Shown here piece by piece: positions 15,836 to 46,175 of a stretch of DNA of 64,000 bases. The notes under the pieces are model-generated. The model was not told where the DNA came from. It saw only the letters and a program-made list of their open reading frames with translations, and made no database searches. A program made the position numbers and the translations under genes. Every line of letters starts with the position of its first letter. Position 1 is the first letter of the stretch. Source of the stretch: Terrimicrobiaceae bacterium (GTDB lineage Bacteria; Verrucomicrobiota; Verrucomicrobiia; Chthoniobacterales; Terrimicrobiaceae); contig JAGYIV010000008.1 of the NCBI GenBank assembly GCA_018402345.1, positions 496,001 through 560,000 on the forward strand, given 5' to 3'.

Positions 15836-15910
15836 GTCCAGGCCAAAGTCTACCCACCGCCTGTGCCAGCCCACCGCGCCACCGGCGCGGCAGCGCCCAT
15901 CGAAAACAAA

Positions 15911-17071
15911 TGGTAGGGACGCCTCGCCGAGGGGTCCTACTCTCGCGGCTATGCCGCCCCTGTCCCCAGAACGGCGCTGCGCGCCTGAAGCTTGGGTCCG
16001 CTACGGCGAGCCGACCCTACCATTTTGAAACCAAGGGGGACGCCCAACGCACAACCAGCGCGCCAGCGCCCCTCGAAAAGAGATGGTAGGGACGCCTCGC
16101 CGAGGGGTCCTACTCTCGCGGCAGGCGAAGCCGCCCCGTCCCCAGAAACGGCGCTGCGCGCCTGAAGTTTGGGTCCGCTACGGCGAGCCGACCCTACCAC
16201 TTTTGAACGAAGAAGACGCCCAACGCACAACCGGCGCGGCAGCGCCCCTCGAAAACAAATGGTAGGGACGCCTCGCCGAGGGGTCCTACTCTCGCGGCAG
16301 GCTTGCCGCCCCCATCCCCAGAAACGGCGCTGCGCGCCTGAAGTTTGGGTCCGCTACGGCGAGCCGACCCTACCACTTTGGAACGAAGGAGACGCCCAAC
16401 GCACAACCGGCGCGCCAGCGCCCCTCGAAAACAGATGGTAGGGACGCCTCGCCGAGGGGTCCTACTCTCGCGGCTATGCCGCCCCTGTCCCAGAAACGGC
16501 GCTGCGCGCCTGAAGCTTGGGTCCGCTACGGCGAGCCGACCCTACCATTTTGGAACGACGGGGACGCCAAACGCACAACCGGCGCGCCAGCGCCATCGAA
16601 AACAGATGGTAGGGACGCCTCGCCGAGGGGTCTCCTACTCTCGCAGGCTTGCCGCCCCCATCCCCAGAGACGGCGCTTCGCGCCTGATGCTTGGGTCCGC
16701 TACGGCGAGCCGACCCTACCATTTTGAAACAACGGAGACGCCAAACGCGCAACCGGCGCGGCAGCGCCCCTCGAAAACAAATGGTAGGGACGCCTCGCCG
16801 AGGGGTCCTACTCTCGCGGCAGGCTTGCCGCCCCCATCCCCAGAAACGGCGCTTCGCGCCTGAAACTTGGGTCCGCTACGGCGAGCCGACCCTACCATTT
16901 TGGAACGAAGGAGACGCCAAACGCGCAACCGGCGCGCCAGCGCCCCTCGAAAACAAATGGTAGGGACGCCTCGCCGTAGGGGTCCCACTCTCGCGGCTAT
17001 GCCGCCCCCATCCCCAGAAACGGCGCTTCGCGCCTGAAACTTGGGTCCGCTACGGCGAGCCGACCCTACCA
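15911..17071. repeat. Seven tandem copies of a palindromic REP/MITE-like repeat (array 1)
   Basis: Seven units of 112-116 bases lie at 15911, 16084, 16260, 16436, 16607, 16782 and 16958, a period of 171-176 bases. Each begins TGGTAGGGACGCCTCGCCG and ends with the imperfect inverted complement (CGGCGAGCCGACCCTACCA), with internal small hairpins. Between units is a conserved linker of about 60 bases rich in CGCAACCGGCGCGCCAGCGC. The units generate open frames in several phases, but these only encode repeated Arg/Pro-rich peptides and are not taken as genes. The rest of the 15764-17155 stretch has no gene. Confidence 0.93.
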
Positions 17072-17155
17072 TTTGGAACGAAGGAGACGCCCAACGCACA
17101 ATTGGGGTAGGTTCTTGTTCAAGAATTAATTCCGACACCCTCTTTACTCTTTATC

Positions 17156-22750: not shown

Positions 22751-23188
22751 GTGCGGGGGGCTGTGCCGGAAAAAATGCGGCCGAAGGCCGGTGGACTATT
22801 TCGATGGCAAGCGAGACGCATGCCCTACATGCCGCGCCCTCGCTCCCCGGGACCTTGTGGATCGACATCGATGAGGTTTCCACGCCATCGCCATAAACGG
22901 CCGGGCCTGATGGAATAGGCTTTGCATTCCACAGGCGAGCGACGGCCGTTCCCCCCTCTTCTCGCGCATGGCGCCGCAGCGCCCCTCGAAAACAAATGGT
23001 AAGGACGCCTCGCCGTAGGGGTCCCACTCTCGCGGCTTGCCGCCCCCATCCCCCCGTCCCCGCCAAAAAATCATATTGCTGTCCATCATTTTGCCCATTT
23101 TTCTTCGCCCCGACCCACAGACACGAATACCCATTGATGAGTATTGCGGTGGATCCAAAAATCCGTGGAGATACGATTGCACAATCCT
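22751..23188. other. Intergenic region with repeat fragments
   Basis: No gene seen. About 22930-22975 holds the second repeat class, and 22976-23055 holds a left half-unit of the main palindromic repeat (ATGGTAAGGACGCCTCGCCG...), truncated after the internal hairpin. The remainder up to the response-regulator start is unremarkable leader DNA. Confidence 0.55.
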
Positions 23189-26327: not shown

Positions 26328-26408
26328 CCGCTTCCGGCATCCCTGCCCATGATTTCGACAGGCGCTCCCGCGCCGACTGCGCGTTGGGCGCCCCCCGTCG
26401 TTCCCAAT

Positions 26409-26984
26409 TGGTAGGGTCGGCTCGCCGCAGCGGACCCATGCTTCAGGCGCGCAGCGCCGTCTCGGGGGATGGGGGCGGCAAGCCGCAAGAGTAGGACCCC
26501 TCGGCGAGGCGTCCCTACCATCTCTTTCGATGGGCGCTCCCGCGCCATTCGCGCGCTCGGCATCCCCCCGTCGTTCCAAATTGGTAGGGTCGGCTCGCCG
26601 CAGCGGACCCATGATTCAGGCGCGTAGCGCCGTCTCAGGGATGGGGGCGGCAAGCCGCGAGAGTAGGACCCCTCGGCGAGGCGTCCCTACCATCTCTTTT
26701 CGATGGGCGCTCCCGCGCCGTTCGCGCGTTCGGCATCCCCCCGTCGTTCCAAATTGGTAGGGTCGGCTCGCCGCAGCGGACCCAAGCTTCAGGCGCGAAG
26801 CGCCGTTTCGGGGATGGGGGCGGCAAGCCGCGAGAGTGGGACCCCTCGGCGAGGCGTCCCTACCATCTCTTTTTCGATGGGCGCTCTCGCGCCGACTGCG
26901 CGTTCGGCGCCCCCCGTCGTTCCAAATTGGTAGGGTCGGCTCGCCGTAGCGGACCCAAGTTTCAGGCGCGTAGCGCCGTCTCCG
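26409..26984. repeat. Palindromic repeat array 2 (reverse orientation)
   Basis: Three complete units at 26409-26520, 26582-26692 and 26755-26865, and a truncated fourth at 26928-26984, in the opposite orientation to array 1. Linkers of about 60 bases carry GGGCGCTCCCGCGCC. The last unit breaks off about 70 bases before the transposase gene. The whole 26328-27056 stretch has no other gene. Confidence 0.92.
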
Positions 26985-27056
26985 GCAAAGAAAATCCCAT
27001 TGCAACACTCCTTTTTGATTTCCCTCCCACACGAATCTTCCAAAAATCAACTCCCC

Positions 27057-27503
27057 ATGGATGCCGGCCGTAAATCCTTGCCCCATGATCTTCCGAACTG
27101 GATCGACCTGCACCATACCGTGTTTTTTATCACCTGTTGCGCCAAGGATCGCACTCTTCAGCCATTTGCCTCGACAGACACCGCGCGGGGAATTCGTAAT
27201 TCGATTCTTCATCGTGTGCGGTCCCGCATTTGGTGGCTCCATGCCGCGACGATCATGCCGGATCATGTCCATCTGGTTCTCGGATTTCCACTCAAGGCGG
27301 ATGTCAGCAAATGCGTGCGGGACTGGAAACGATGGACCGCAAGAACGCTGGCCATCGATTGGCAGCGGGATTTTTTCGAGCACCGCTTGCGCAGCGAAGA
27401 GGATTTTCAAGAGAAAACTCGGTATGTTCTCGAAAATCCCGTCCGCGCCGGATTGGTCGATGATTGGCGGGACTGGCCGTTTACCATTTTGCCAGAAGCG
27501 TAG
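27057..27503 (+). CDS. REP-associated tyrosine transposase (RAYT, Y1/IS200-like)
   Basis: 148 residues. The HUH-type Y1 transposase core is present: V-F-F-I-T-C-C strand, the metal-binding H70-x-H72 in A-T-I-M-P-D-H-V-H-L-V-L, and Y123 in T-R-Y-V-L-E-N-P-V-R-A-G-L-V, the block that marks RAYTs. These single-domain enzymes nick single-stranded palindromic ends. It lies between a truncated copy and a short copy of the palindromic repeat, so it is likely the enzyme that spreads them. ATG 27057 is preferred; the 19 upstream codons have no family match. Appears intact. Confidence 0.9.
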   Translation: MDAGRKSLPHDLPNWIDLHHTVFFITCCAKDRTLQPFASTDTARGIRNSILHRVRSRIWWLHAATIMPDHVHLVLGFPLKADVSKCVRDWKRWTARTLAIDWQRDFFEHRLRSEEDFQEKTRYVLENPVRAGLVDDWRDWPFTILPEA

Positions 27504-27510
27504 CGGGGGA

Positions 27511-27597
27511 TAGGGTCGGCTCCCGCCTCCGCGCTTCGCGACTCCGGCGTGGCAAGCCGCCGCAGAAGTAGGACCCCTCGGCGAGGCGTCCCTACCA
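27511..27597. repeat. Short-form palindromic repeat unit after the transposase
   Basis: An 87-base unit runs from TAGGGTCGGCTCCCGCC to CGTCCCTACCA. Its centre (CGCTTCGCGACTCCGGCGTG) differs from the long units but is repeated almost exactly at 28377-28466. It begins seven bases after the transposase stop. Confidence 0.85.
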
Positions 27598-27688
27598 TCT
27601 CTTTTCGATGGGCGCTGCGCGCCGCGATCAAAGAAAAATCACTTGCGACTCCGAACGGGGTGGATTTGATTCCATTTAGCTTTCTTCC

Positions 27689-27922
27689 ATGAGCTCGTTC
27701 ACAGCCATCCTCGAACCCGATGCGAAAGGGATGCTTCACTTTCCAGTCCCGACGGAGTGGGGAAACGCCCCCGTTCGCGTGAAAGCCGAGTTGCAGCCAC
27801 TCTCCGGCGAGGGGAATGGACCGTCTGGCCTAAACAAGGGGTTCGGATGCATGCGCGGCCTCATTTCCATGTCCCCCGACTTTGATTCGCCGCTTGAGGA
27901 TTTCAAGGATTACGCGCCGTGA
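27689..27922 (+). CDS. Antitoxin of TA module 2
   Basis: 77 residues. The N-terminal half (T-A-I-L-E-P-D-A-K-G-M-L-H-F-P-V-P) looks like an AbrB/DUF2281-like DNA-binding strand set. The C-terminal G-C-M-R-G-L-I-S-M-S-P-D-F-D-S-P-L-E-D-F matches the toxin-neutralising tail of antitoxins paired with PIN toxins. Its TGA overlaps the toxin GTG start. The assignment rests on the tail motif and gene pairing. Confidence 0.8.
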   Translation: MSSFTAILEPDAKGMLHFPVPTEWGNAPVRVKAELQPLSGEGNGPSGLNKGFGCMRGLISMSPDFDSPLEDFKDYAP

Positions 27923-28305
27923 GGCTTTTGTTGGACACCCATGCGTTGATTTGGTTCTGCGAGGGCCACTCCAAACTGGGTAAAAAAGCAAGAGCGGCCT
28001 TGGAAGACAACTCGAACGAATGCTTCGTGAGCCACGCCACGCCTTGGGAGATGGCCATCAAGCTCTCGCTCGGACGGCTTGAGCTGCAGATGGGCTTGGA
28101 GGAATTCTTTTCCGAGGTGCTGAATGCAAACGGTTTCGTTTTTCTGGAATCCAAGGTGCCCCATTACGCCGAACTGGCCCGCTTACCTTTCCACCACCGG
28201 GATCCGTTTGACCGGTTGCTCGTTGCGCAGGCGCGAGTCGAGGACCTGGTCCTGGTCACCTGCGATGGATTTGCGTCCGATTACGGTGTGCCGGTTCTCT
28301 GGTGA
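27919..28305 (+). CDS. PIN-domain toxin of TA module 2
   Basis: 128 residues from a GTG overlapping the antitoxin stop. Catalytic acidic residues are D6 (L-L-L-D-T-H-A-L-I-W), E44 (P-W-E-M-A), D95/D98 (R-D-P-F-D-R) and D116. It is a probable Mg-dependent ribonuclease toxin. The module lies between two near-identical short-form repeats (27511-27597 and 28377-28466). Confidence 0.9.
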   Translation: MRLLLDTHALIWFCEGHSKLGKKARAALEDNSNECFVSHATPWEMAIKLSLGRLELQMGLEEFFSEVLNANGFVFLESKVPHYAELARLPFHHRDPFDRLLVAQARVEDLVLVTCDGFASDYGVPVLW

Positions 28306-28376
28306 ATTTTTAAAGGCGGTGCCATTTCCGTGTGAACACCGGGAGCAAGCTGAACGCGTCCCCCGTCGTTCCAAAT

Positions 28377-28989
28377 TGGTAGGGTCGGCTCCCGCCTCCG
28401 CGCTTCGCGACTCCGGCGTGGCAAGCCGCCGCAGAAGTAGGACCCCTCGGCGAGGCGTCCCTACCATTTGTTTTCGAGGGGCGCTGCCGCGCCGGTTGCG
28501 CGTTCGGCGCCCCCCCTTCGTTCCAAATTGGTAGGGTCGGCTCGCCGTAGCGGACCCAACCTTCAGGCGCGAAGCGCCGTCTCGGGGGGATGGCGGCGGC
28601 ATCGCCGCGAGAGTAGGACCCCTCGGCGAGGCGTCCCTACCATCTCTTTTCGAGGGGCGCTGCCGCGCCGACTGCGCGTTCGGCGTCCCCCGTCGTTCCA
28701 AATTGGTAGGGTCGGCTCGCCGTAGCGGACCCAAGTTTCAAGCGCGAAGCGCCGTCTCGGGTGATGGCGGCGGCTTCGCCGCGAGAGTGGGACCCCTCGG
28801 CGAGGCGTCCCTACCATCTCTTTTCGACAGGCGCTCCCGCGCCGACTGCGCGTTCGGCGCCCCCCTTCGTTCCAAATTGGTAGGGTCGGCTCGCCGTAGC
28901 GGACCCAAGTTTCAGGCGCGAAGCGCCGTTTCGGTGGATGGGGGCGGCAAGCCGCGAGAGTCGGACCCCTCGGCGAGGCGTCCCTGCCA
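28377..28989. repeat. Palindromic repeat array 3
   Basis: Four units in the same orientation as array 2: a short form at 28377-28466 and long forms at 28529-28642, 28704-28816 and 28878-28989, with the usual GC-rich linkers. The array ends about 40 bases from the AbiEii-like stop codon. Open frames across it encode only repeated Arg/Ser/Pro peptides. The 28306-29032 stretch has no other gene. Confidence 0.92.
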
Positions 28990-29032
28990 TCTCTTTTCGA
29001 GGGGCGCTGCCGCGCCGCCGAAGTCCCACGTT

Positions 29033-30591: not shown

Positions 30592-30616
30592 TTGACATTC
30601 GTGCGCGATTTTTAGA

Positions 30617-30780
30617 CAGGGGCGGCTTCGCCGCAAGAGTGGGACCCCTCGGCGAGGCGTCCCTACCTTCTCTTTTCGATGGGCGCTCCCGCGCCGGTGG
30701 CGCGTTCGTCGCCCCCCTTCATTCCAAATTGGTCGGCTCGCCGCAGCGGACCCAAGCTCCAGGCGCACAGCGCCGTCTCC
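30617..30780. repeat. Two partial palindromic repeat units upstream of the AbiE-like module
   Basis: Half units at about 30617-30675 (ending CGTCCCTACC) and 30728-30780 (TTGGTCGGCTCGCCGCAGCG, with the GTAG of the end motif missing). They mark the right border of the repeat-rich region. From 30781 to 30976 no gene is seen; a weak TTGTCA lies at 30908 and a strong Shine-Dalgarno AGGAGGGG precedes the next gene. Confidence 0.8.
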
Positions 30781-30976
30781 GACTCGGAGAGCGGGTCTAC
30801 CGATTGGTTTCCACGGGCTGCCGCCGTGCGAAACGAAGCCGAACAGGACAACCCCTTTCGCCCCTCTCCAAGTCCATGCATGGGGTCAAGACCCTCTCCA
30901 AATAAGATTGTCAGCCCAATGGATTCTGACAGATTCCCTGCGGCTACACGCCAAGAAAGGAGGGGAAACAACAATC

Positions 30977-35041: not shown

Positions 35042-35494
35042 ATGATCGCCATCGTCGCCATGTCCCCACAACGCGTTATCGGAGCCGAAGGCCGCATTCC
35101 GTGGCACATCCCCGAGGATCTCAAATTTTTCAAACGCACCACCCTCGGCCATGCCGTGCTCATGGGCAGGAAGACCTACGAGTCCATCGGGAAACCCCTC
35201 CCCGGCCGAGAAAACATCGTTCTCTCGCGCACGGCGGACTTCCCCGGCGTGCGCATGGTGCGGTCGCTGGATGAGGTGTCCGAGCCTGCCGACGGACGCC
35301 AACTCTTCGTGATCGGCGGCGCGGAACTCTACGCCGCCCTCCTGCCACGCTGCGCGGAACTCCTCCTCACCCGCGTGGCGATCGAGGTTCCCGGCGACAC
35401 ATTTTTCCCCGCCTTCGAAGACTTTTTCGACAAAGGCGAACTTCTCGAAACCGGCGCGAACTATGAAATCCGCCGCCACAGACGACTCGCATGA
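35042..35494 (+). CDS. folA: Dihydrofolate reductase
   Basis: 150 residues. I-V-A-M-S-P-Q-R-V-I-G, the W-H-I-P-E-D-L-K-F-F substrate strand, G-R-K-T-Y-E-S-I-G-K-P-L-P-G-R and V-I-G-G-A-E-L-Y are DHFR hallmarks. It reduces dihydrofolate with NADPH. It lies between thyA and tatD, overlapping tatD by four bases (ATGA). Confidence 0.96.
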   Translation: MIAIVAMSPQRVIGAEGRIPWHIPEDLKFFKRTTLGHAVLMGRKTYESIGKPLPGRENIVLSRTADFPGVRMVRSLDEVSEPADGRQLFVIGGAELYAALLPRCAELLLTRVAIEVPGDTFFPAFEDFFDKGELLETGANYEIRRHRRLA

Positions 35495-36339
35495 TCATCG
35501 ACACCCACGCCCACCTCGACTACCCGGATTTTGAACACGACCTCCCCGCCGTGCTTGAGGCGGCGCGGCAGGCAGGCGTAGACCGAGTGATCACCATCGG
35601 CACCGGCCTCGAAAGCAGCCGCCGCGCGGTGGCGCTCGCCGAGCGCTTCGAGAATGTCTTTGCGGTCGTCGGCCTGCATCCCACCTACGTCGCGGAGGAG
35701 ACCTCCGGCTGGCTCGAGGGCATCCGCGCCCTCGCCGCACACCCGAAGGTCGCCGCCATCGGCGAGACCGGCCTCGACTACCACCACCTTCCCTCGGAAA
35801 ACCTCGCCTCGTCTCCCGCTATCAGCGCCCTGCAGGCCGAGATGGCCAGCGACACCGAGGCGGCGATCGTCGATGGCGCCTACAAGGCCGCACAGGCCGA
35901 GGCCTTCACCGCGCAACTCGACCTGGCGGCGGAATTCGGGCTGAACGTCGTGATCCACCAGCGCGACGCTTGGGATGACACCCTCGACCTGCTCCACCCC
36001 TACACCGGCAAGTTGCGCGGGGTCTTCCACTGCTTCGGTAACACCCCCGCCCAAGCCCTCGATCTTGTTGCGCTCGGCCACCTTGTGTCCTTCACCGGCA
36101 TCGTGACCTTCAAAAATGCGGCGCTCGTGCGCGAGACCGTCGCCGCGATTCCCTTGGACGCCTTCATGGTCGAGACCGATTGCCCCTACCTCGCCCCCGT
36201 TCCCCACCGAGGCAAACGCTGCGAACCCGCCCACACCCGCCTCGTCGCCGAGCAAATCGCCGCCACCCGCGGCATCGCGCTCGAGGAGGTCGCCGCCGCC
36301 ACGACCCGCACCGCCGAGGGGTTTTTCCGAATGCGCTGA
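35491..36339 (+). CDS. tatD: TatD family metal-dependent hydrolase
   Basis: 282 residues. The metal-binding T-H-A-H-L-D, G-E-T-G-L-D, F-H-C-F and E-T-D-C-P-Y-L-A-P motifs of TatD DNases are present. A 30-residue insertion (about 105-135) after the G-L-D-Y motif is longer than usual. TatD proteins are 3'-5' exonucleases with a proposed DNA repair role. Last gene of the thyA-folA-tatD unit. Confidence 0.93.
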   Translation: MIIDTHAHLDYPDFEHDLPAVLEAARQAGVDRVITIGTGLESSRRAVALAERFENVFAVVGLHPTYVAEETSGWLEGIRALAAHPKVAAIGETGLDYHHLPSENLASSPAISALQAEMASDTEAAIVDGAYKAAQAEAFTAQLDLAAEFGLNVVIHQRDAWDDTLDLLHPYTGKLRGVFHCFGNTPAQALDLVALGHLVSFTGIVTFKNAALVRETVAAIPLDAFMVETDCPYLAPVPHRGKRCEPAHTRLVAEQIAATRGIALEEVAAATTRTAEGFFRMR

Positions 36340-36347
36340 GTGGAGGC

Positions 36348-36389
36348 AAAAAAACGCCGGCACACGTCGTGGTGACGCATGCCGGCGTT
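36348..36389 (-). terminator. Rho-independent terminator for a reverse-strand transcript
   Basis: A 10-bp stem, AACGCCGGCA (36353-36362) with TGCCGGCGTT (36380-36389), has its T-run (seven T) only on the reverse strand. It therefore ends a transcript arriving from higher coordinates: either the small-RNA candidate next to it or a long 3' extension of the tonB operon. Confidence 0.8.
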
Positions 36390-36390
36390 G

Positions 36391-36530
36391 GAAAAAATTG
36401 CCCCGCTCGTGCCGTTCCGAAGCGTTTCCCGTTCCCTTATGACAGGGTGGATGACCGCAAACCGCGGGATCTGCCTTCCAATGAAGGCCTGACATCACGC
36501 GCGGCCGCCTAGCCTCCGGGATGTGTTTAC
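36391..36530 (-). ncRNA. Candidate structured small RNA
   Basis: No coding potential, but a terminator follows directly and the reverse-strand sequence folds well: 36496-36504 can pair with 36403-36411 (8 of 9 pairs), enclosing three small hairpins at 36473-36488 (GCCTTC/GAAGGC), 36455-36467 (CCGC/GCGG) and 36434-36447 (CCCT/AGGG). A poor -10-like TATGTA lies just upstream. The size with the terminator (about 180 bases) would suit a 6S-like RNA, but I do not recognise a family. The rest of 36531-36640 shows nothing. Confidence 0.35.
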
Positions 36531-36643
36531 ATAGGTCCGGGAGCTGCCTCGTTTAATCGCGAACACAGCAGGGCAAATTCGTAGCGGCCGAAGCCGCGAA
36601 AATTTTGGGTTGAGGGAAAGATCAACTTCGAAGATCGCCGCCT

Positions 36644-36735
36644 GTTTTCTCCCGCAGAACCGCTCAAACACGGTCTGTGGAGGCGTTGACCCCGACGGCT
36701 GACAACGTCCTCTCCGCGCTCTGGAAAGTCAAGGA
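36644..36735 (-). pseudogene. Decayed copy of the pheT 3' end
   Basis: The segment matches the 3' end of the real pheT (42035-42135) with about 16 differences over about 100 bases. Its translation reads S-L-T-F-Q-S-A-E-R-T-L-S-A-V-G-V-N-A-S-T-D-R-V before a stop; pheT has S-L-T-F-R-S-A-E-R-T-L-T-A-D-E-V-N-A-A-T-D-R-V. It is on the same strand as pheT but 5.4 kb away, with the TonB cluster between the two. No upstream part of pheT is present. Confidence 0.8.
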
Positions 36736-36772
36736 GCCAAATACTTCAACTTTGGATTCAGCCACATATTGA

Positions 36773-37504
36773 TCACTCATCGAGATTGAACCGGAGGGGG
36801 ATGTCCAAGATCGCCCCGGCCTTGGCATTTCGTATTCTGCAACGCCACGCTCCCTCAATCGCTGCCCGATCAAGTCTCGGAAAGCCGCTCCCTTTCAGGA
36901 CCGCGACTTGGGTTGGCCTCCCTCTGGAGTCAACCGTAATCCGGATGACGACTGTTCCCTCCTCACGAGCTTGGCGGGATTCTGCCGGATAAATCAGCGA
37001 GGGCCTTTTTGCAAAAGCGGCCTGAGAGGACCTCGCATCAATCAACCCGCTCACAGCCGAACCAGTAGCATGAAGGCTTGCCTTCGGCTTTCCGGCAGGA
37101 TCGGCGGCTGATTTGTTTTGTTTGGGAATGCTCGGCTTGGGAGCGACTCGGGGCGGTGCTGGAGTTGGCACGCTGGGCGGCGGAGCTTGTGCTTCGGGCG
37201 AAAACTCCGTCTCCTCCACAGGTTGCGGCTCTAAGGGCGGCTCTTCGGGAAGCGGCGTGGGCTCGGGGATCGGCTGTTCGACAGGTTCGGGAGCAGAGGG
37301 TTCATCGGCAAACGCGTCGATCTCCTCGGACTCCTGTTCCCATGAGGCCGTCAATTCCACCTCGACACCTGTCGGTTCCGCGTCCAACCCAAGGCTGTGG
37401 GTGGCGGGGGCTGGTGCCCAACCGAAAAGAACCGCTGCATGGGCGGCAGCGGCGATGGCTGCGGAAACCCACAGGATGTCCCTGGATTCTACTAAACGCC
37501 ACAT
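36773..37504 (-). CDS. tonB: TonB energy-transducing protein
   Basis: 243 residues: a single N-terminal membrane anchor (about 10-30), a long Pro/Glu-rich periplasmic spacer (about 55-130) and a C-terminal TonB domain with Y-P-A-E-S-R-Q-A-R-E-E-G-T-V-V-I-R-I-T-V and S-G-F-P-R-L-D-R-A-A. It transmits proton-motive force from ExbBD to the outer-membrane receptor. Last gene of the reverse-strand uptake operon, two bases after exbD. Confidence 0.92.
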   Translation of the reverse strand: MWRLVESRDILWVSAAIAAAAHAAVLFGWAPAPATHSLGLDAEPTGVEVELTASWEQESEEIDAFADEPSAPEPVEQPIPEPTPLPEEPPLEPQPVEETEFSPEAQAPPPSVPTPAPPRVAPKPSIPKQNKSAADPAGKPKASLHATGSAVSGLIDARSSQAAFAKRPSLIYPAESRQAREEGTVVIRITVDSRGRPTQVAVLKGSGFPRLDRAAIEGAWRCRIRNAKAGAILDIPLRFNLDE

Positions 37505-37506
37505 GT

Positions 37507-37919
37507 CTATCGTTTGGCTGGGTTCGTTTCGAAGGTCACCTTGGAAATTCCAATCCGGCGCACTTGGTCCAGAACGGCGATGGCCAGACCAAGGCGCGCG
37601 TTTTCATCGCCGTGAATGAACACTTTGAGCTCAGGATTGGCCGCCTGCAAACGGGCGAGTTCGGCGAAAGCTCGGCTTCGGGCATTTCCCGCTTGTCGAG
37701 GTAGTATTGCCCGGCCTCCGAGATTCCGATGACCAGGTGTTCCTGGCGTTCCGAGGATTCGCCTGTCGCAGCTTTCGGCAGCACCACGGGGATGCCTTTG
37801 TTTTTGACCATCGAGAGCGAGACCAACACAAAGGCGGCAAGAAGGAAAAAAATGATGTCGATGAGGGGCACGATTTCGAGGCGCGCCCGGCGTTTGCCTT
37901 GGTGGCGTGGAATTTCCAT
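37507..37919 (-). CDS. exbD: ExbD/TolR biopolymer transport protein (frameshifted)
   Basis: About 137 residues when joined: one membrane helix with the essential Asp (I-V-P-L-I-D-I-I-F-F-L-L), and a periplasmic ExbD domain. The frame breaks at 37667-37669; adding one base to the AAA run (TTT on the coding strand) gives E-A-E-L-F-A-E-L-A-R-L-Q-A-A-N-P, continuing to V-F-I-H-G-D-E-N-A-R and I-S-K-V. Length 413 is one short of a multiple of three. Its start overlaps the exbB stop by one base (TAATG). Confidence 0.88.
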
Positions 37920-38518
37920 TAGACACGGTCCAGGAGGTGGAGTTCCACATGGCTCGCGGCGTCCTGCATTTCGAGCCGAGCCTCCTCTTCGCGGGCGTTG
38001 AGGTAGTTGAATGGAAGCAGCGCCGCGATGGCGATGCCGAGGCCGGATGCTGTGGCGATGAGCGCCTCGGCAATTCCCCCGGTGATGGCAGTTGGCGCCC
38101 CGAGTTCCTCCCCACCGATCATGTTGAAACTCGCGATCATGCCGGTCACTGTCCCGAGAAGGCCAAGCAACGGCGCCAGCGTGATTGAGGTGTCGAGGAT
38201 CGTGAGGCCGCGATTGAAACGCTTGAGTTCCCGGTTGGCGGCGCGGAGCATCGCTTCGCTGAACGATTTTTCCCGGTGCGACAGTGCATACCCGAGCGCA
38301 CGGGCGACGAAGTCATTCGACTCGTTACCCAAACGCGCTGCCGAGCCCGGATCGCCCCGCTCGACGAGCGTGAGGATTTCGCCCACCAGATCAGGACGCC
38401 GCCGCCACTTTTCAATCGCGATAAAGACCAGTCGCTCGAGGACGACAGTGAAGGTGATCAAGGACAAGGCCAGAAGCGGCCACATGATCGGGCCGCCCTT
38501 AATAAAGATTTCGATCAT
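37919..38518 (-). CDS. exbB: ExbB/TolQ proton channel protein
   Basis: 199 residues with three membrane segments. The MotA/TolQ/ExbB signature is clear: L-A-P-L-L-G-L-L-G-T-V-T-G-M-I and G-G-I-A-E-A-L-I-A-T-A-S-G-L-G-I-A-I. With ExbD it forms the proton-driven motor that energises TonB. It overlaps the PepSY gene by four bases. Confidence 0.94.
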   Translation of the reverse strand: MIEIFIKGGPIMWPLLALSLITFTVVLERLVFIAIEKWRRRPDLVGEILTLVERGDPGSAARLGNESNDFVARALGYALSHREKSFSEAMLRAANRELKRFNRGLTILDTSITLAPLLGLLGTVTGMIASFNMIGGEELGAPTAITGGIAEALIATASGLGIAIAALLPFNYLNAREEEARLEMQDAASHVELHLLDRV

Positions 38519-39231
38519 GGTTTTTGCGAGGGGTTGCGGCGCGGACGTGTTATGAAAAACAGCACCACGCCGCCGAGGGCGACGATAGTGATCCCCGCCA
38601 TGGCAGACACGAGCGCAGCATCTCGCACGGCCTTGTTCGGGATGAAGCCGAACTTGTGGAAGAGGAAAAACACATTCGCCTCGAATTGCTTTTTGTTGTC
38701 CGTATGCCGCGTCACGGTGCCGGTCGTAGTGCTCACATAGACACGGGTGCCCTTCCCGTCATCCGCATCAAAGCGAAAGACAGGAAGAATCCGGAAAATG
38801 TTCACATACTCATGGTTGAAGGCGGTGAGGTAATCCGTCTGCCGGACCTCGGCAGCGCCGAGGAAGGATCTGGCGATCTGAGCCGCGTATGTGGCGTCCA
38901 TCGCTGGATCTACGCGCCCGTCCACAGCGCTGACATAGGCTGGGACGGGTTTCGGGCCGTAGATTTGATACCACGGCGCACCACCGATCATTCGGAGATT
39001 GATCGCCCCCACCCTGCCAAAATCGTTGCCCAGCTTTTCTAGTGCCTGACCGGCATCGGTTTGGATGTCGGCGGTAACGATTCCATTTCCGGATGGGTGA
39101 ACCGGAGGCGGTGGCGGTTGTTTGTTCGCCATGATTGTATGGAGAACACCACTCAAGGCGGAGGTCAGGACAATGAGGCTGAAAAACAGCCCGAGCCAGC
39201 GGTGGAGTGAACGGATGGTTGACGTTTTCAT
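38515..39231 (-). CDS. PepSY-domain inner-membrane protein
   Basis: 238 residues. An N-terminal R-x-L-H-R-W-L-G helix typical of PepSY-associated membrane proteins, a periplasmic PepSY-like region (about 50-190) and a C-terminal helix followed by F-F-I-T-R-P-R-R. These proteins often accompany siderophore or metal TonB receptors and some act as ferric-siderophore reductases. ATG 39231 overlaps the receptor stop codon by one base, so MKTSTIRSLH is taken as the start. Confidence 0.8.
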   Translation of the reverse strand: MKTSTIRSLHRWLGLFFSLIVLTSALSGVLHTIMANKQPPPPPVHPSGNGIVTADIQTDAGQALEKLGNDFGRVGAINLRMIGGAPWYQIYGPKPVPAYVSAVDGRVDPAMDATYAAQIARSFLGAAEVRQTDYLTAFNHEYVNIFRILPVFRFDADDGKGTRVYVSTTTGTVTRHTDNKKQFEANVFFLFHKFGFIPNKAVRDAALVSAMAGITIVALGGVVLFFITRPRRNPSQKP

Positions 39232-41422
39232 CACCAGCGCCATTCAACCCCCGCGTAGAAGCCGCGCCCTTCGCCCGGCAGGAACTGGGCCACATCGACG
39301 CCGCCCGCGTCGGCCACCACACCGGTTGTCGCGGTATAGTTCGTGTCCACGATATTTTTGATTTCGAAATATGCCGAAAATCCCTTCGGCGACCTCCAAC
39401 CGATCTTCGCCCCAAGGAGGGCATAGCTGTCGGTGAAGACAGTTCCCGCCGAATCGATGCTGTAGCCGATGGGCACATATTCGAAATTCGGGCCGATGTA
39501 GAAGCCGCTGGGGTGCTCGTAGACGAGCTCTGCGCGGATGTAATGCTCAGGAATGCCTGGCAGGGCGTTGTTACCGTAAACCGCGTCGTTCACATACTGG
39601 AAGTTGTTCCAGAGATAGTTCACGCGGAGAAGCAGTCGATCCCAGTTTGGTTTTTCCGAACCGAAAACGTCCGTGAAAGTTTTCTCCTCAGGAGATTTGT
39701 TGGTAAAAATGTTGTAAAAAACATCCCAGTTCGCGGCGAACTCAATGCCTTGGTGGCGGGTGTTTCCAGCGTTCACGGTCTGCGTCAAGCCGGGCTGGAT
39801 TTCGTAGGCGAGCAGTTCATTTTCCAGCCAGGAGTAGTAGTAGCAGAGATCCCAGGTGAAGTGCTTGAATCGTCCGCGGGTGCCGACCTCGACGGTCGTT
39901 CCGGTCTGGGCGTCGAGTTGGACGAGCCCGACCTGACCGTTCGAGGCCTCCACCAACTCGCCGAAAGTCGGTGGCTCGAAGCTCCGGCTGGCGTCGGCGT
40001 AGAATTGCACTTCATCCACAGGTTGGTAGAGAACTCCCAGCTTGGGGCTGAATCCCCACCAGTTTTGGGTATCACTGTTGTCGGGGCCTGTCGGGAAATT
40101 GTCTGCGTTGGTCCGCTCGACATAATTGACTTGTGTGCCAGCGAGAACCGACCACTCATCGGTGATCCAGAATTGCTCCAGCGCGTAGGCGTCGAGGTTC
40201 AGTGCGAACTGTTCGTTGCTGGCGAATTGCGCTCCGCGTTTGCCGAAGTTATTCACATACCGCGTGTCGCTCACATATCCCCAAGTCGGCGTGAACCCGA
40301 GAGTGAAGTTGTTTCGGTAGCCGAAAAGATCGGCCATGTAGTCGTTGCGCAACCCGACACCGAAATCGTTGGTGAGCTGGTCGATGACAAAAAGAATCGG
40401 GTGGTCGAGGTCTTTTCTGGACCAGAATCCACTCAAACTCAGGCGATTGTCATCCGTCTCCCACGTCGTCTTGTTGGCCACGCGCAGCAGGGTGTAATCG
40501 CGCTTCCAGTCGCTTGTGACATTATCGAATCGGGCCACAGGTTGCAGGGTTCTTAGGGTTGCGGGAACCCGGGCGGCTTGGCGCGGATCGAGATTCAGTT
40601 GCTCCTGCGTGAGGCTGCCGGGCAACTCGGAATCGGTCTGCGCATAGGCGAAGTAGAACCGCGTCTCCAGTTCGGGATGAAACTTGTAGCCGAGGTTGGC
40701 AAAGAGCCGCTGGTTGTTTTGCGAACTGTGCTCGCGGTATCCATCCGTCGAAAAATGCGTCAAACTCACAAAGTAGTCGAACGGACCTACGACATCACCA
40801 CTCGCCAACAGCGCCCGATAGGTATTGTAGCTGCCATACTCGAAGCGGGCATCGAGGAGCGGTGCATCGTATCCAGTATAGGAGATGAAATTCACCGCGC
40901 CGCCGAGCGAGGACGCGCCATATTCCAAGCCATTCGATCCGCGAAAGACCTCGATCGCCTTGGCGCAGGCGGCTCGATCGCCGGAAATCGAAACTCCCGT
41001 CCGCGAGATTGATTGGCACGCCATCCTGCAAGAGCTTGAGCCCGCGCCCGTGGAAGGTCCGCTGGATGCCCGAGCCTCGGATGGAAATACGGGCCTCCTC
41101 TGCGCCGAAACGAGGTTGCACGAAAACACCTGGAGCATAATCCAAGGCATCCTTCACCGTGGTCGATCGGCCGTATTTGTAATATTCCGCGTCAATGACC
41201 TCGCCGGCACCGGGGATTTCCGCGATTTGCTCACGAAGGGTGCGGATCGAGAGGATTGGTCAGCGACTCAGGCTTGGCGCTGACCACGGTTTCAGGGAGA
41301 ACCTGCGGCGCGGCAGCTTGTGGAGTTGGTAAGGGAGAGGGTTGGGCGACCGCTTGAGCAAACGCCCCGGTTGAAGCGCAGATGAACGCAGATATAGCTG
41401 CAAGATATTTGTAAAAATTCAT
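39231..41422 (-). CDS. TonB-dependent outer-membrane receptor (several frameshifts near the N-terminus)
   Basis: About 730 residues. Signal peptide at 41422 (MNFYKYLAAISAFICASTG...), a TonB-box-like P-E-T-V-V-S-A, a plug domain (D-A-L-D-Y-A-P-G-V-F-V-Q, S-I-R-G-S-G, L-L-Q-D-G-V-P) and a 22-strand-type barrel ending G-V-E-W-R-W. The frame changes at about 41235-41250 and at least twice within 40970-41015 before F-R-G-S-N-G-L-E-Y-G-A-S. Either this part is poorly sequenced or the gene is decaying. Ligand unknown; context suggests a metal chelate (iron or copper). Confidence 0.82.
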
Positions 41423-41533
41423 TTATATAAAGTTTGGATGCTTGATTTCGGCACAATATGCCGGTTAGAGACTCAACAACCCGAACCGCAACGGCAGGGT
41501 GACGTTATTTAGACAACCTCGGAGTCGAGGGAA

Positions 41534-41938
41534 CTAACCTACCGGAATTGGAACCGGTCTGGGCGGGGCATGACCAAGTGAACACGCGAACAAATCCGAA
41601 GCATGCGGATAGGAAAATGAAATCGAGTCAGGGAGAGGCAACGTTTCGTTGTTTTGGTCGGCGAACAATTCAATCTTGATCGCTGCAAGCAGAGACTGGT
41701 TGTGTTGTTCCTTGCCTTTCGCCTCCTTGATCGAGTCGCACATATGGCAGGGGTGGTCGCCGTCGAATGTTTGCTTGGCGGCCACCAGCAACGAGCCGTT
41801 TTCGTGGGTGTAGGACCACAGCATTTTTCCCCACGCCACGGCTTGCAGCAGACCAAAATGGCCATTCACGAGCACAAAGAGGGACGCCATCGCGGCGATG
41901 CGTCCGAATCGATGAAGATGTCCAGTGCGGGAATTCAA
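41534..41938 (-). CDS. Small membrane/exported protein with C-H-M-C motif (DUF2946-like)
   Basis: 134 residues. A hydrophobic segment (about 14-36) precedes a region with H-P-C-H-M-C-D-S-I-K-E-A-K, reminiscent of short metal-handling proteins found beside TonB receptors. First gene of the reverse-strand uptake cluster, 111 bases upstream of the receptor. The C-x-x-C and neighbouring His suggest metal binding; this is inference. The start at 41938 could be a few codons shorter. Confidence 0.6.
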   Translation of the reverse strand: MNSRTGHLHRFGRIAAMASLFVLVNGHFGLLQAVAWGKMLWSYTHENGSLLVAAKQTFDGDHPCHMCDSIKEAKGKEQHNQSLLAAIKIELFADQNNETLPLPDSISFSYPHASDLFACSLGHAPPRPVPIPVG

Positions 41939-42025
41939 AGCGGGGTGTTCAAAGCGGTTGGGAGCAAACCTGTCAAGCCCTCATGCGCCCCGAAGATTGA
42001 TAGCAACGCAGTGTGCGAGGGCACT

Positions 42026-44357
42026 CTACTCGCGGAAATCGACGCCTGTCTTCTCCCGCAGAACCGCTTTGACACGGTCTGTGGCGGCGTTGACCTCGTC
42101 GGCCGTCAGCGTTCGCTCCGCGCTCCGGAACGTCAGGGAAACCGCCAGCGATTTTTTGTCGGCTGGAATTTTTTCGCCTTTCGGATCGGTGAATAAATCG
42201 AACAACTCGACGCCGTCCAGAAGCGGTTCGTTCAACGAACCGATGGCCGCGCGCACCTCGCCGTAGGGCAGGGCCAGCGGCGCGACGAAGGCGATATCGC
42301 GGGCAGATGCAGGGAACTTCGGAAGCGGAGCAACCATGGTTTCCTTGGCGGCAAGCGACCCCCAGGCATCCAGATCGAATTCCGCCGCGAGCAGCGCGCT
42401 ATCGATTCCGAAGCCTCGGGCGACGGCAGGCAGGAGTTGGCCGACGATGCCGATGCGCTTTCCATGAAGGAGAGCCTCCGCCGCCGCTCCGAAGGGGGCG
42501 GGCGGATTGGCAAGCGGGCGGAGTTCGGCACCCGAGAGGCGGCTTGTCAGACCGGTGAGGTCGAAGACATCCCAAGCACGCAAGGCGCCGCCACGCCAGT
42601 CGCCGGGCTGACGCTCTCCCGTGGCAATAAGGGCGAGGCGTTGGAATTCGCCTTCGGGCGTGAAGATACGTCCGACCTCGAACAACGGGATTCCCTTCGC
42701 TCCATGGTCGAGATTGCGGGACACCGCCGCGAGGAGGCCGGGAAGAAGGCTGTTGCGGAGGCGCGACTGGTCGTCGCCAAAGGGGTTTTTCAACACCACC
42801 GCTGCTCCGAACATTTCGGTCGCTGATGCCGAAACAAGCGTGCCGGTGCGCGCCTCGTGGAAGCCCGCGCCGGCGCAACTTGCGGCGGAGGTTCATGGCG
42901 AAATCATAGGCGGCATCGGCCGCCGAACCTTGCGCGAACAGACCTGCCGCGCGCGATGGAATCGCCTCGATCCCGATCACGCGGGCGACTTCCTCGATCA
43001 AATCCGCCTCGCGGGCCACCTCGCGCCGGTAGCCGGGCACGATCCATGTGCCATCCGCCGCTTTTTCCAATCCGACTCGGCCCAATGCGGCATCGATCTC
43101 GGCATCGGACAATTGCACGCCCAAAAGCGAACGAACACGCTCGGATCGGAGAGCGACCGCATGCCGTGGCGGGATTTCACCGGCGATATGGAGGGTTTCC
43201 TCGGCGGTGCCTCCGGCGAGTTGCAAGATGAGTTCCACCGCGCGGGCGGAGGCCTTCTCGACGCCCTCGGAATCGACGCCCCGCTCGAAGCGGTAGCTGG
43301 AATCACTGAAGAGGCCGAGCGCCCGCGAGGCGCGGCGGACACTCGCAGGATCGAACATCGCGCTCTCGAGGAGAATCTCGGTGGTTGATTCCGTGACGCC
43401 GCTGGATTCGCCGCCCATGACGCCAGCGAGGGCCACCGGACCATTGTCGTCAGCGATAACCAACGCACCGGCGGGCAGATTGTAATCCTTGCCGTCGAGC
43501 GCGCGGAACGCCTCGCCCTCGGATGCCCCGCGCACACGAAGTCCGCCTGCGATCTTAGCGGCATCGAAGGCATGGAGCGGCTGACCGAGCTCGAACAGCA
43601 CGTAGTTCGTGATATCGACGATATTGTTGATCGGGCGCAGGCCGATCGCCGTGAGGCGATCAACCAGCCACTGCGGGCTGGGAGCGACGTTGACACCAGA
43701 GATTTTCCGTAGGGTGTAGAAGGTTTTGCGATCGGATGGATCGCCCAGCAGGCTCGCCGTCTGCTCGACTTGGCCGGGGAGCTGCGGTGCTGGATTTTTC
43801 ACCGGTGCACCAGTGAAGACGCCGATCTCTCGGGCGACACCGAGATGGCTGAGCCAGTCCGAGCGGTTCGGCGTGATCTCGAGTTCGAGCACGGTTTCCA
43901 CCGGGAAGAGATCCTTCAGCGCGGCGCCCGGCACGCTCGCCGGGTCCAGAATGAGCAGGCCTTCGGCATCCTCGGCGAGTTGCAGTTCCTTCGCGCTGCA
44001 CATCATGCCCTCGCTTTCGACGCCGCGCAGCTTGCCGGTCTTGATTTTGAAATCCCCCGGCAACACCGCTCCAGGCAGCGCCAGTGGCACCTTGTCGCCG
44101 ACCTTGTAGTTTTTCGCGCCGCACACGATCTGGCGCGGTTGCCCCGAACCGTCATCCACCTTGCACACGCTAAGGCGGTCGGCATTCGGATGCTGGACGG
44201 ATTCCAGCACCTGCGCGACCACGACCTTGTCGATGGAAACACCACGGCGCCTCACCCCGGCAACCTCAAGGCCTGCACGCCGCAGCAGCGCCTCGAGTTC
44301 GGGAACGGAAAGTTGGCAATCGATAAAGTCGCGGAGCCAGTTGAGTGAGATATTCAC
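42026..44357 (-). CDS. pheT: Phenylalanyl-tRNA synthetase beta subunit (frameshifted)
   Basis: About 776 residues. N-terminal tRNA-binding domain (V-V-V-A-Q-V-L-E-S-V-Q-H-P-N-A-D-R-L), B3/B4 editing domain, B5 domain and the C-terminal ferredoxin-like anticodon-binding domain (S-L-T-F-R-S-A-E-R-T-L-T). The frame changes at about 42876-42882, where one base seems extra: K-L-R-R-A-G-F-H-E-A-R-T-G-T-L-V-S-A-S-A-T-E continues into M-F-G-A-A-V-V-L-K-N-P. The gene is essential, so an error is likely. It follows pheS by seven bases. Confidence 0.93.
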
Positions 44358-45372: not shown

Positions 45373-45381
45373 GGCTTTCTA

Positions 45382-45804
45382 AGGATTGACCACAGAGGGC
45401 ACAGAGAACACGGAGGGGGAGAAAGGGTTGGATGGAGGGGCGCTTGGAATCGAGCGTCGAGGCCATTTTAGCATCCCACGGGTCGTGCCCAGAATATCTC
45501 TTCCGTCTCCTCTGTGGTTAAATATTTTTTTTGGGGGCATCGCTTAAGGACTTCTTCAATCTAGCGCAGGCACCCGGCCTGCGAGCGTAAGCCGTCAGAT
45601 GTCAGGCGAGACGCCTGACCTACATAAGCGCGCTTGAAATCCACGACATTGAAGACTTTGGGATCTCCAAATCCTGAAAAGCATCAGAGCCTGGAAATCA
45701 GGAATCGGCACCGATCCTCTTGAGGATGTTGAATTGAACCCGAGGCCACTTCGGGCGCGAAGGGTTTAGCCTCCGTGCCCTCTGTGTCCTCTGTGGTCAA
45801 TCCT
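45382..45804. mobile_element. MITE-like element between rplT and pheS
   Basis: A 423-base segment without genes is bounded by inverted 35-base ends: 45382-45416 (AGGATTGACCACAGAGGGCA...) and 45770-45804, whose complement differs at only about four positions. A third partial copy (CTCCTCTGTGGTTAA) lies at about 45507-45521. Inside is a perfect hairpin GTCAGGCG-AGA-CGCCTGAC at 45601-45619. It fills almost exactly the rplT-pheS gap. No transposase is encoded, so it would be non-autonomous. Confidence 0.65.
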
Positions 45805-46175
45805 CAGGCTGCCTTTTTGGCGTCGAGGGCGGTGCGGACCTGGGAGACGATTGTCTTGAAGGTCGCTTCGTCCTGGACGGCGATATCGGCGAGAACCTTG
45901 CGGTCGAGACCGATATTCGCGGCCTTGAGGCCCTCGATGAAACGGCTGTAGGTGAGTCCCTCGGCGCGCACGGCGGCGCTGAGACGGGTGATCCACAAGG
46001 CGCGGAAATTGCGCTTGCGGGTCTTCCGGTCGCGGTAGGCCCAGTATTTGCCTTTCATCTGGGCATCTTTCGCATAGCGGAAGAGTTTCGAACGGCGGCC
46101 GCGGTAGCCTTTCGAGGCATCGATCACGCGCTTGCGGCGGGCGCGACTGGCTGGAGCATTGGTTGCTCTTGGCAT
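45804..46175 (-). CDS. rplT: 50S ribosomal protein L20
   Basis: 123 residues. M-P-R-A-T-N-A-P-A-S-R-A-R-R-K-R-V, A-K-G-Y-R-G-R-R-S-K-L-F-R (here S-K-G-Y-R), Y-R-D-R-K-T-R-K-R-N-F-R-A-L-W-I-T-R-L and the N-I-x-L-D-R-K-V-L-A-D-I-A motif identify L20, a 50S assembly protein. It follows rpmI by 141 bases, a gap with no gene. infC is not upstream. Confidence 0.95.
   Translation of the reverse strand: MPRATNAPASRARRKRVIDASKGYRGRRSKLFRYAKDAQMKGKYWAYRDRKTRKRNFRALWITRLSAAVRAEGLTYSRFIEGLKAANIGLDRKVLADIAVQDEATFKTIVSQVRTALDAKKAA

Follow-up and report, generated by a model that had tools for sequence, protein, structure and literature searches.

The stretch of DNA analysed here, referred to as the window, comprises 64,000 nucleotides from a contig of a Terrimicrobiaceae bacterium. 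Within it a TonB uptake operon stands between the phenylalanyl-tRNA synthetase gene pheT and a 6S RNA gene, and a decayed copy of the last bases of pheT lies at the opposite end of the operon. The features of this interval, with genomes of relatives denoted by G numbers, are as follows.

35491–36339, plus strand: tatD, convergent with the 6S RNA gene and syntenic in G005.
36396–36577, minus strand: 6S (SsrS) RNA gene (Rfam RF00013), which ancestrally lay directly downstream of pheT.
36629–36739, minus strand: relic of the ancestral 3' end of pheT, a pseudogene fragment with one in-frame TGA, located by repeat searches and adjoined by the 6S RNA gene.
36740–42025, minus strand: inserted segment with the TonB uptake operon, G+C 57.5%, missing from the pheT-6S interval of relatives.
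36773–37504, minus strand: tonB (Pfam PF03544).
37510–37919, minus strand: exbD (Pfam PF02472), with one frame break near 37668 relative to the G015 orthologue.
37919–38518, minus strand: exbB (Pfam PF01618).
38515–39243, minus strand: PepSY-type membrane protein (Pfam PF03929, slightly below cut-off, E 1.7e-6).
39231–41422, minus strand: TonB-dependent receptor (Pfam PF00593), with frame breaks near 41.25 and 40.97 kb relative to the G015 orthologue.
41534–41938, minus strand: small CxxC-motif protein at the operon head, also found in G015 and G007, with no Pfam match.
42026–42142, minus strand: functional 3' end of pheT, the second copy, whose similarity to relatives ends at the stop codon.
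42026–44357, minus strand: pheT, with a frame break near 42.88–42.99 kb.

All five core proteins of a TonB-ExbB-ExbD system with a TonB-dependent receptor and a PepSY protein are recognised here (PepSY below the Pfam cut-off), and the operon is unusual in location alone. The Pfam-supported gene order agrees with the initial annotation of the sequence, which had placed tonB, exbD, exbB, PepSY and the receptor between the two pheT ends. That annotation had also proposed comparing base composition inside and outside the cluster. The insert is lower, at 57.5% G+C with flanks of 65.1% and 63.8%; among 5.3-kb windows of the surroundings it falls at approximately the 10th percentile, and the low G+C is only suggestive. 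Frame breaks occur at 42880–42990 in the essential pheT, at 37668 in exbD, at 40970 and 41252 in the receptor gene and at approximately 32790 in a murJ-like gene. Their spread across unrelated and essential genes suggests assembly indel errors, and the break in pheT is probably a sequence error.

A whole-genome search with positions 36600–36800 returned a single additional match, aligning 36634–36735 with 42038–42139 on the same strand at 84% identity (E 6e-26). This bears out the initial annotation, which had described a decayed copy of the pheT end at 36644–36735, about 84% identical and in the same orientation as the gene. Ungapped extension of the pair covers 107 nt (36629–36735 and 42033–42139) at 83% identity with a spacing of 5404, and homology reaches approximately 36739 on the relic side and the pheT stop (42026) on the gene side. 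The insert is thus flanked by a direct repeat of the 3' end of its target gene, which is by far the strongest repeat of the region. In the 460 kb around the site it is the sole isolated direct-repeat pair in which we recognised a gene 3' end and its duplicate; those other isolated pairs that were read are intergenic or repetitive DNA, while the remaining, unread pairs look like paralogues. No general habit of duplicated gene ends was seen in the 460 kb scanned. The relic translates as GSLTFQSAERTLSAVGVNASTDRV*AVLREKTGGDLRS, compared with VSLTFRSAERTLTADEVNAATDRVKAVLREKTGVDFRE at the C-terminus of PheT, and because it carries several amino-acid changes and an in-frame TGA we regard it as a pseudogene piece.

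The 6S RNA gene at 36396–36577 (minus strand) is unannotated, and it directly follows pheT in several Spartobacteria. It matches the RF00013 covariance model over its full length with 47.1 bits, just above the gathering threshold of 46.4, while 6S RNAs of relatives score 48.0 and 57.4 bits. The gap preceding the 6S RNA contains a GCGGCTTCGGCCGC-type hairpin, which is seen again in several relatives. In this genome 6S sits between the relic, which it adjoins, and tatD. In eight relatives (G005, G007, G013, G008, G012, G018, G021 and G024) it begins within approximately 100 nt of the pheT stop, the gap being 40–100 nt, with no TonB cluster between them. One of these, G005, is the sister of this genome in a whole-pheT tree (support 100) and likewise has dfrA-tatD beside 6S, with an extra metallopeptidase-like gene between 6S and tatD. 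The relic together with 6S (36375–36739) aligns with the pheT end and 6S of G005 without a break, at 86% identity over 366 columns.

Given the pheT-6S order of the eight relatives, G005 included, the relic represents the gene's original end, still at its ancestral position, and the end that is joined to the gene body today is a second copy. Each copy has an ancestral flank on one side, which is the pattern of a target duplication, and the TonB operon plus the second, functional end now separate pheT from 6S. The clean junction without the cluster that the initial annotation had hoped to find in relatives does therefore exist (n = 8), though as pheT-6S rather than the pheT-tatD junction it had envisaged.

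The surroundings of pheT and 6S are not uniform among relatives. An alpha-amylase-like gene stands between pheT and 6S in G004, and other genes follow pheT in G003, G006 and G015; together with the additional gene in G005, these differences mark the stretch as a flexible spot in this family. As regards possible recombination within pheT itself, the middle segment groups this genome with G004 and G006 (support 62), and elsewhere the gene groups with G005. Such flexibility, seen in the genes next to pheT or 6S in G004 and G005, would accommodate an origin in two steps, in which the pheT end, perhaps along with 6S, first underwent a small tandem duplication, one copy decayed and the operon later arrived between them. 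Both copies look native to the lineage, in keeping with this origin. It nevertheless calls for an extra event, and no relative shows the duplication by itself. We consider two separate steps improbable.

To apportion the divergence we compared the relic, the functional pheT end and G005 across 110 aligned sites. Of approximately 20 differences between relic and pheT, 14 are private to the relic and are spread over codon positions 1/2/3 as 4/6/4. Six changes are private to the functional end, of which five are silent, while at position 105 it has the state of all other relatives compared; the 11 changes private to G005 fall as 4/0/7. The even distribution in the relic indicates neutral decay after the duplication. 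Once this decay is removed, the two ends differed by at most about 5%, and were thus approximately 95% identical at insertion; the difference at duplication could be up to about 10% if silent relic changes are counted as older too. By comparison, 18 of 111 sites separate the functional end from G005, and 29–41 separate it from the other relatives.

The initial annotation had taken the divergence to mean that the island brought its own replacement end. The codon-position pattern contradicts this, and the divergence of the copies instead stems mainly from decay of the relic. A foreign, previously diverged end is rejected on that pattern, while a topology test on 111 bases is non-decisive: joining the pheT end with the relic scores only 2.8 log units above joining the relic with G005 (AU p 0.29). 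A diverged end duplication therefore need not imply a foreign replacement end. As for age, the relic branch measures approximately 0.2 substitutions per site, while silent divergence between this genome and G005 is at least 1.7 in pheS, pheT and tatD, near saturation, and lower in rplT. On this rough dating the insertion is probably clearly younger than the split from G005.

The same results speak to whether the arrangement could be an assembly artefact or a chimeric contig. The several frame breaks in the window do point to indel errors or pseudogenes, but the copies differ by 16% in a neutral pattern and assemblers do not create diverged copies, and the relic is co-linear with 6S in the same way as the pheT end of the sister genome. 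An artefact is accordingly the least credible of the explanations we weighed.

The operon itself is patchily distributed. The same receptor occurs in 7 of the 15 other genomes of the genus searched, some of them incomplete. Within this search, including its incomplete genomes, the receptor was not found in G005, G003, G004, G006, G013, G008 or G012. In G015 the operon is flanked by feoB and aroD and begins right behind the feoB stop (gene names assigned by eye from open reading frames), whereas G003, a near relative of G015, has different DNA at this place and lacks the operon. In G007 the operon stands beside an NtrC-type regulator gene. No flanking repeats of note surround the operon in G015 or G007.

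The receptor has a dN of 0.058 to the G015 copy and 0.152 to that of G007, while the corresponding values are 0.235 and 0.274 for pheT and 0.067 and 0.061 for pheS. The receptor is far closer to G015 than core genes are, which shows that the operon has moved between lineages. Its patchy occurrence, differing locations and anomalous closeness to the G015 copy all point to horizontal movement. Silent divergence from the G015 copy is 0.6 to 1.3 for exbB, the receptor and PepSY and 2.0 for tonB, suggesting that G015 was not the direct donor. A search for plasmid carriage of the receptor returned only relatives below 60% identity, the best at approximately 34%. The clean junctions, the other locations and the closeness to G015 together uphold the view of the initial annotation that the cluster was inserted behind pheT, and the insertion itself is well supported.

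How the operon entered is less settled than that it did. The initial annotation had proposed site-specific integration, and there is a close geometric precedent: where prophage e14 has inserted in icd, 163 bp of the gene are left displaced as a pseudogene and the element provides a fresh end (PMC6379469). In that Escherichia coli case, as here, a direct duplication of the gene's 3' end flanks the insert, although the displaced end is approximately 110 bases at pheT. An integrase-bearing element could thus have supplied a replacement pheT end and later lost its integrase and everything else except the operon, and the fact that similarity of the functional copy stops exactly at the pheT stop codon fits such an event. 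Other observations argue against it. As the initial annotation had also remarked, no integrase is visible: there is no tyrosine integrase in the insert or within 300 kb, the nearest on the contig being more than 300 kb away. The open reading frames of the 5.3-kb insert are those of the TonB operon alone, with no integrase, phage, conjugation or other mobile-element genes among them, and in G015 and G007 the operon lacks such repeats. The two ends were nearly identical at insertion, another departure from e14, and the longest exact runs between them are 18, 13, 10 and 10 nt, within a copy that has decayed.

Nor does pheT appear to be a recurrent target. Among the 185 genomes of the order with a detectable pheT end, no other was seen with a second end flanking an insert; three of the 185 gave two pheT-end matches, with those of G145 on separate contigs and the second of G183 outside the matches listed. 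No pheT-targeting element was found in the phage records or viral contigs searched. A Pseudomonas phage record containing pheT consists of host flank, in which pheT is accompanied by genes of the IHF and MerR types, and then an integrase; since the integrase lies beyond these genes, the integration was not in pheT. One unannotated phage-collection record with a pheT end looks like plain bacterial DNA. At the level of titles and abstracts, the literature yielded nothing relevant on pheT as an insertion site. The search for elements using this target, which the initial annotation had recommended, therefore lends its proposal no support, and we consider integration of the e14 kind unlikely. Less probable again would be a small mobile unit in these Spartobacteria that carries TonB operons from one gene end to another (pheT here, feoB in G015) by means of an unrecognised recombination system that rebuilds the target 3' end; we mention this only as a speculative idea.

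The explanation we favour, and believe to be probably correct, is a one-off, lineage-specific insertion of the TonB operon between pheT and 6S, with a target duplication of approximately 110 bases. After the split from G005, a horizontally circulating TonB uptake operon would have entered between pheT and the 6S RNA gene, duplicating the last 110–118 bases or so of pheT. Of the two resulting copies, the one continuous with the gene would have stayed functional, while the one beside the 6S RNA gene would have lost its role and decayed. As for the mechanism, we lean towards homology-assisted capture of the incoming DNA, in which recombination within pheT would have formed one junction and end joining the other.

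Homology-facilitated illegitimate recombination of this kind, associated with transformation and conjugation, has been described experimentally (PMC3240628) and has also been put forward where inserts have displaced old gene ends downstream (PMC5361080). The shared elements would be a junction with a homologous gene, a second junction made by end joining and an old gene end left downstream, and the displacement of old gene ends proposed for Vibrio cholerae T6SS arrays (PMC5361080) resembles the pheT case. This genome has a ComEC gene, so DNA uptake is possible. The functional end is continuous with pheT, as a homologous anchor should be, although this is equally expected under the other models, and its similarity ending exactly at the pheT stop also fits a replacement end of the integrase type. 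One-sided homologous capture calls for a donor in which the operon lies next to pheT, and here the case differs from the described process: on the contigs read, several of them short, pheT is beside the operon in none of the seven other operon genomes. Neither of the short insert flanks has a match in any fetched relative. The weak 111-base phylogeny (2.8 log units) and one derived amino-acid change common to the relic and G005 also count against this explanation. We infer, tentatively, that homology-assisted capture is the likeliest mechanism, and would rank integration with later loss of the integrase second and a prior tandem duplication third.

The insertion scar is instructive yet ordinary. 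Its value lies in being well polarised: an accessory operon entered a conserved neighbourhood of translation genes and left the essential gene unharmed, with the old end and its replacement both still recognisable and the empty site preserved in relatives.

Several further features were observed in the window and contig. An inverted repeat of 38 nt (45379–45416 and 45770–45807, 89% complementary) flanks 353 nt between pheS and rplT, and several relatives have its arm sequence at about the same location. Families of approximately 170-nt repeats form long arrays on both strands at 15869–17101, 22970–23053, 26336–29017 and 30615–30781; they are 80–95% alike and common to several places of the window. 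Approximately 63 kb past the window end, the same contig encodes a repetitive protein of 2043 residues that is rich in GGxGxD-type repeats (L121, 3537–9668).
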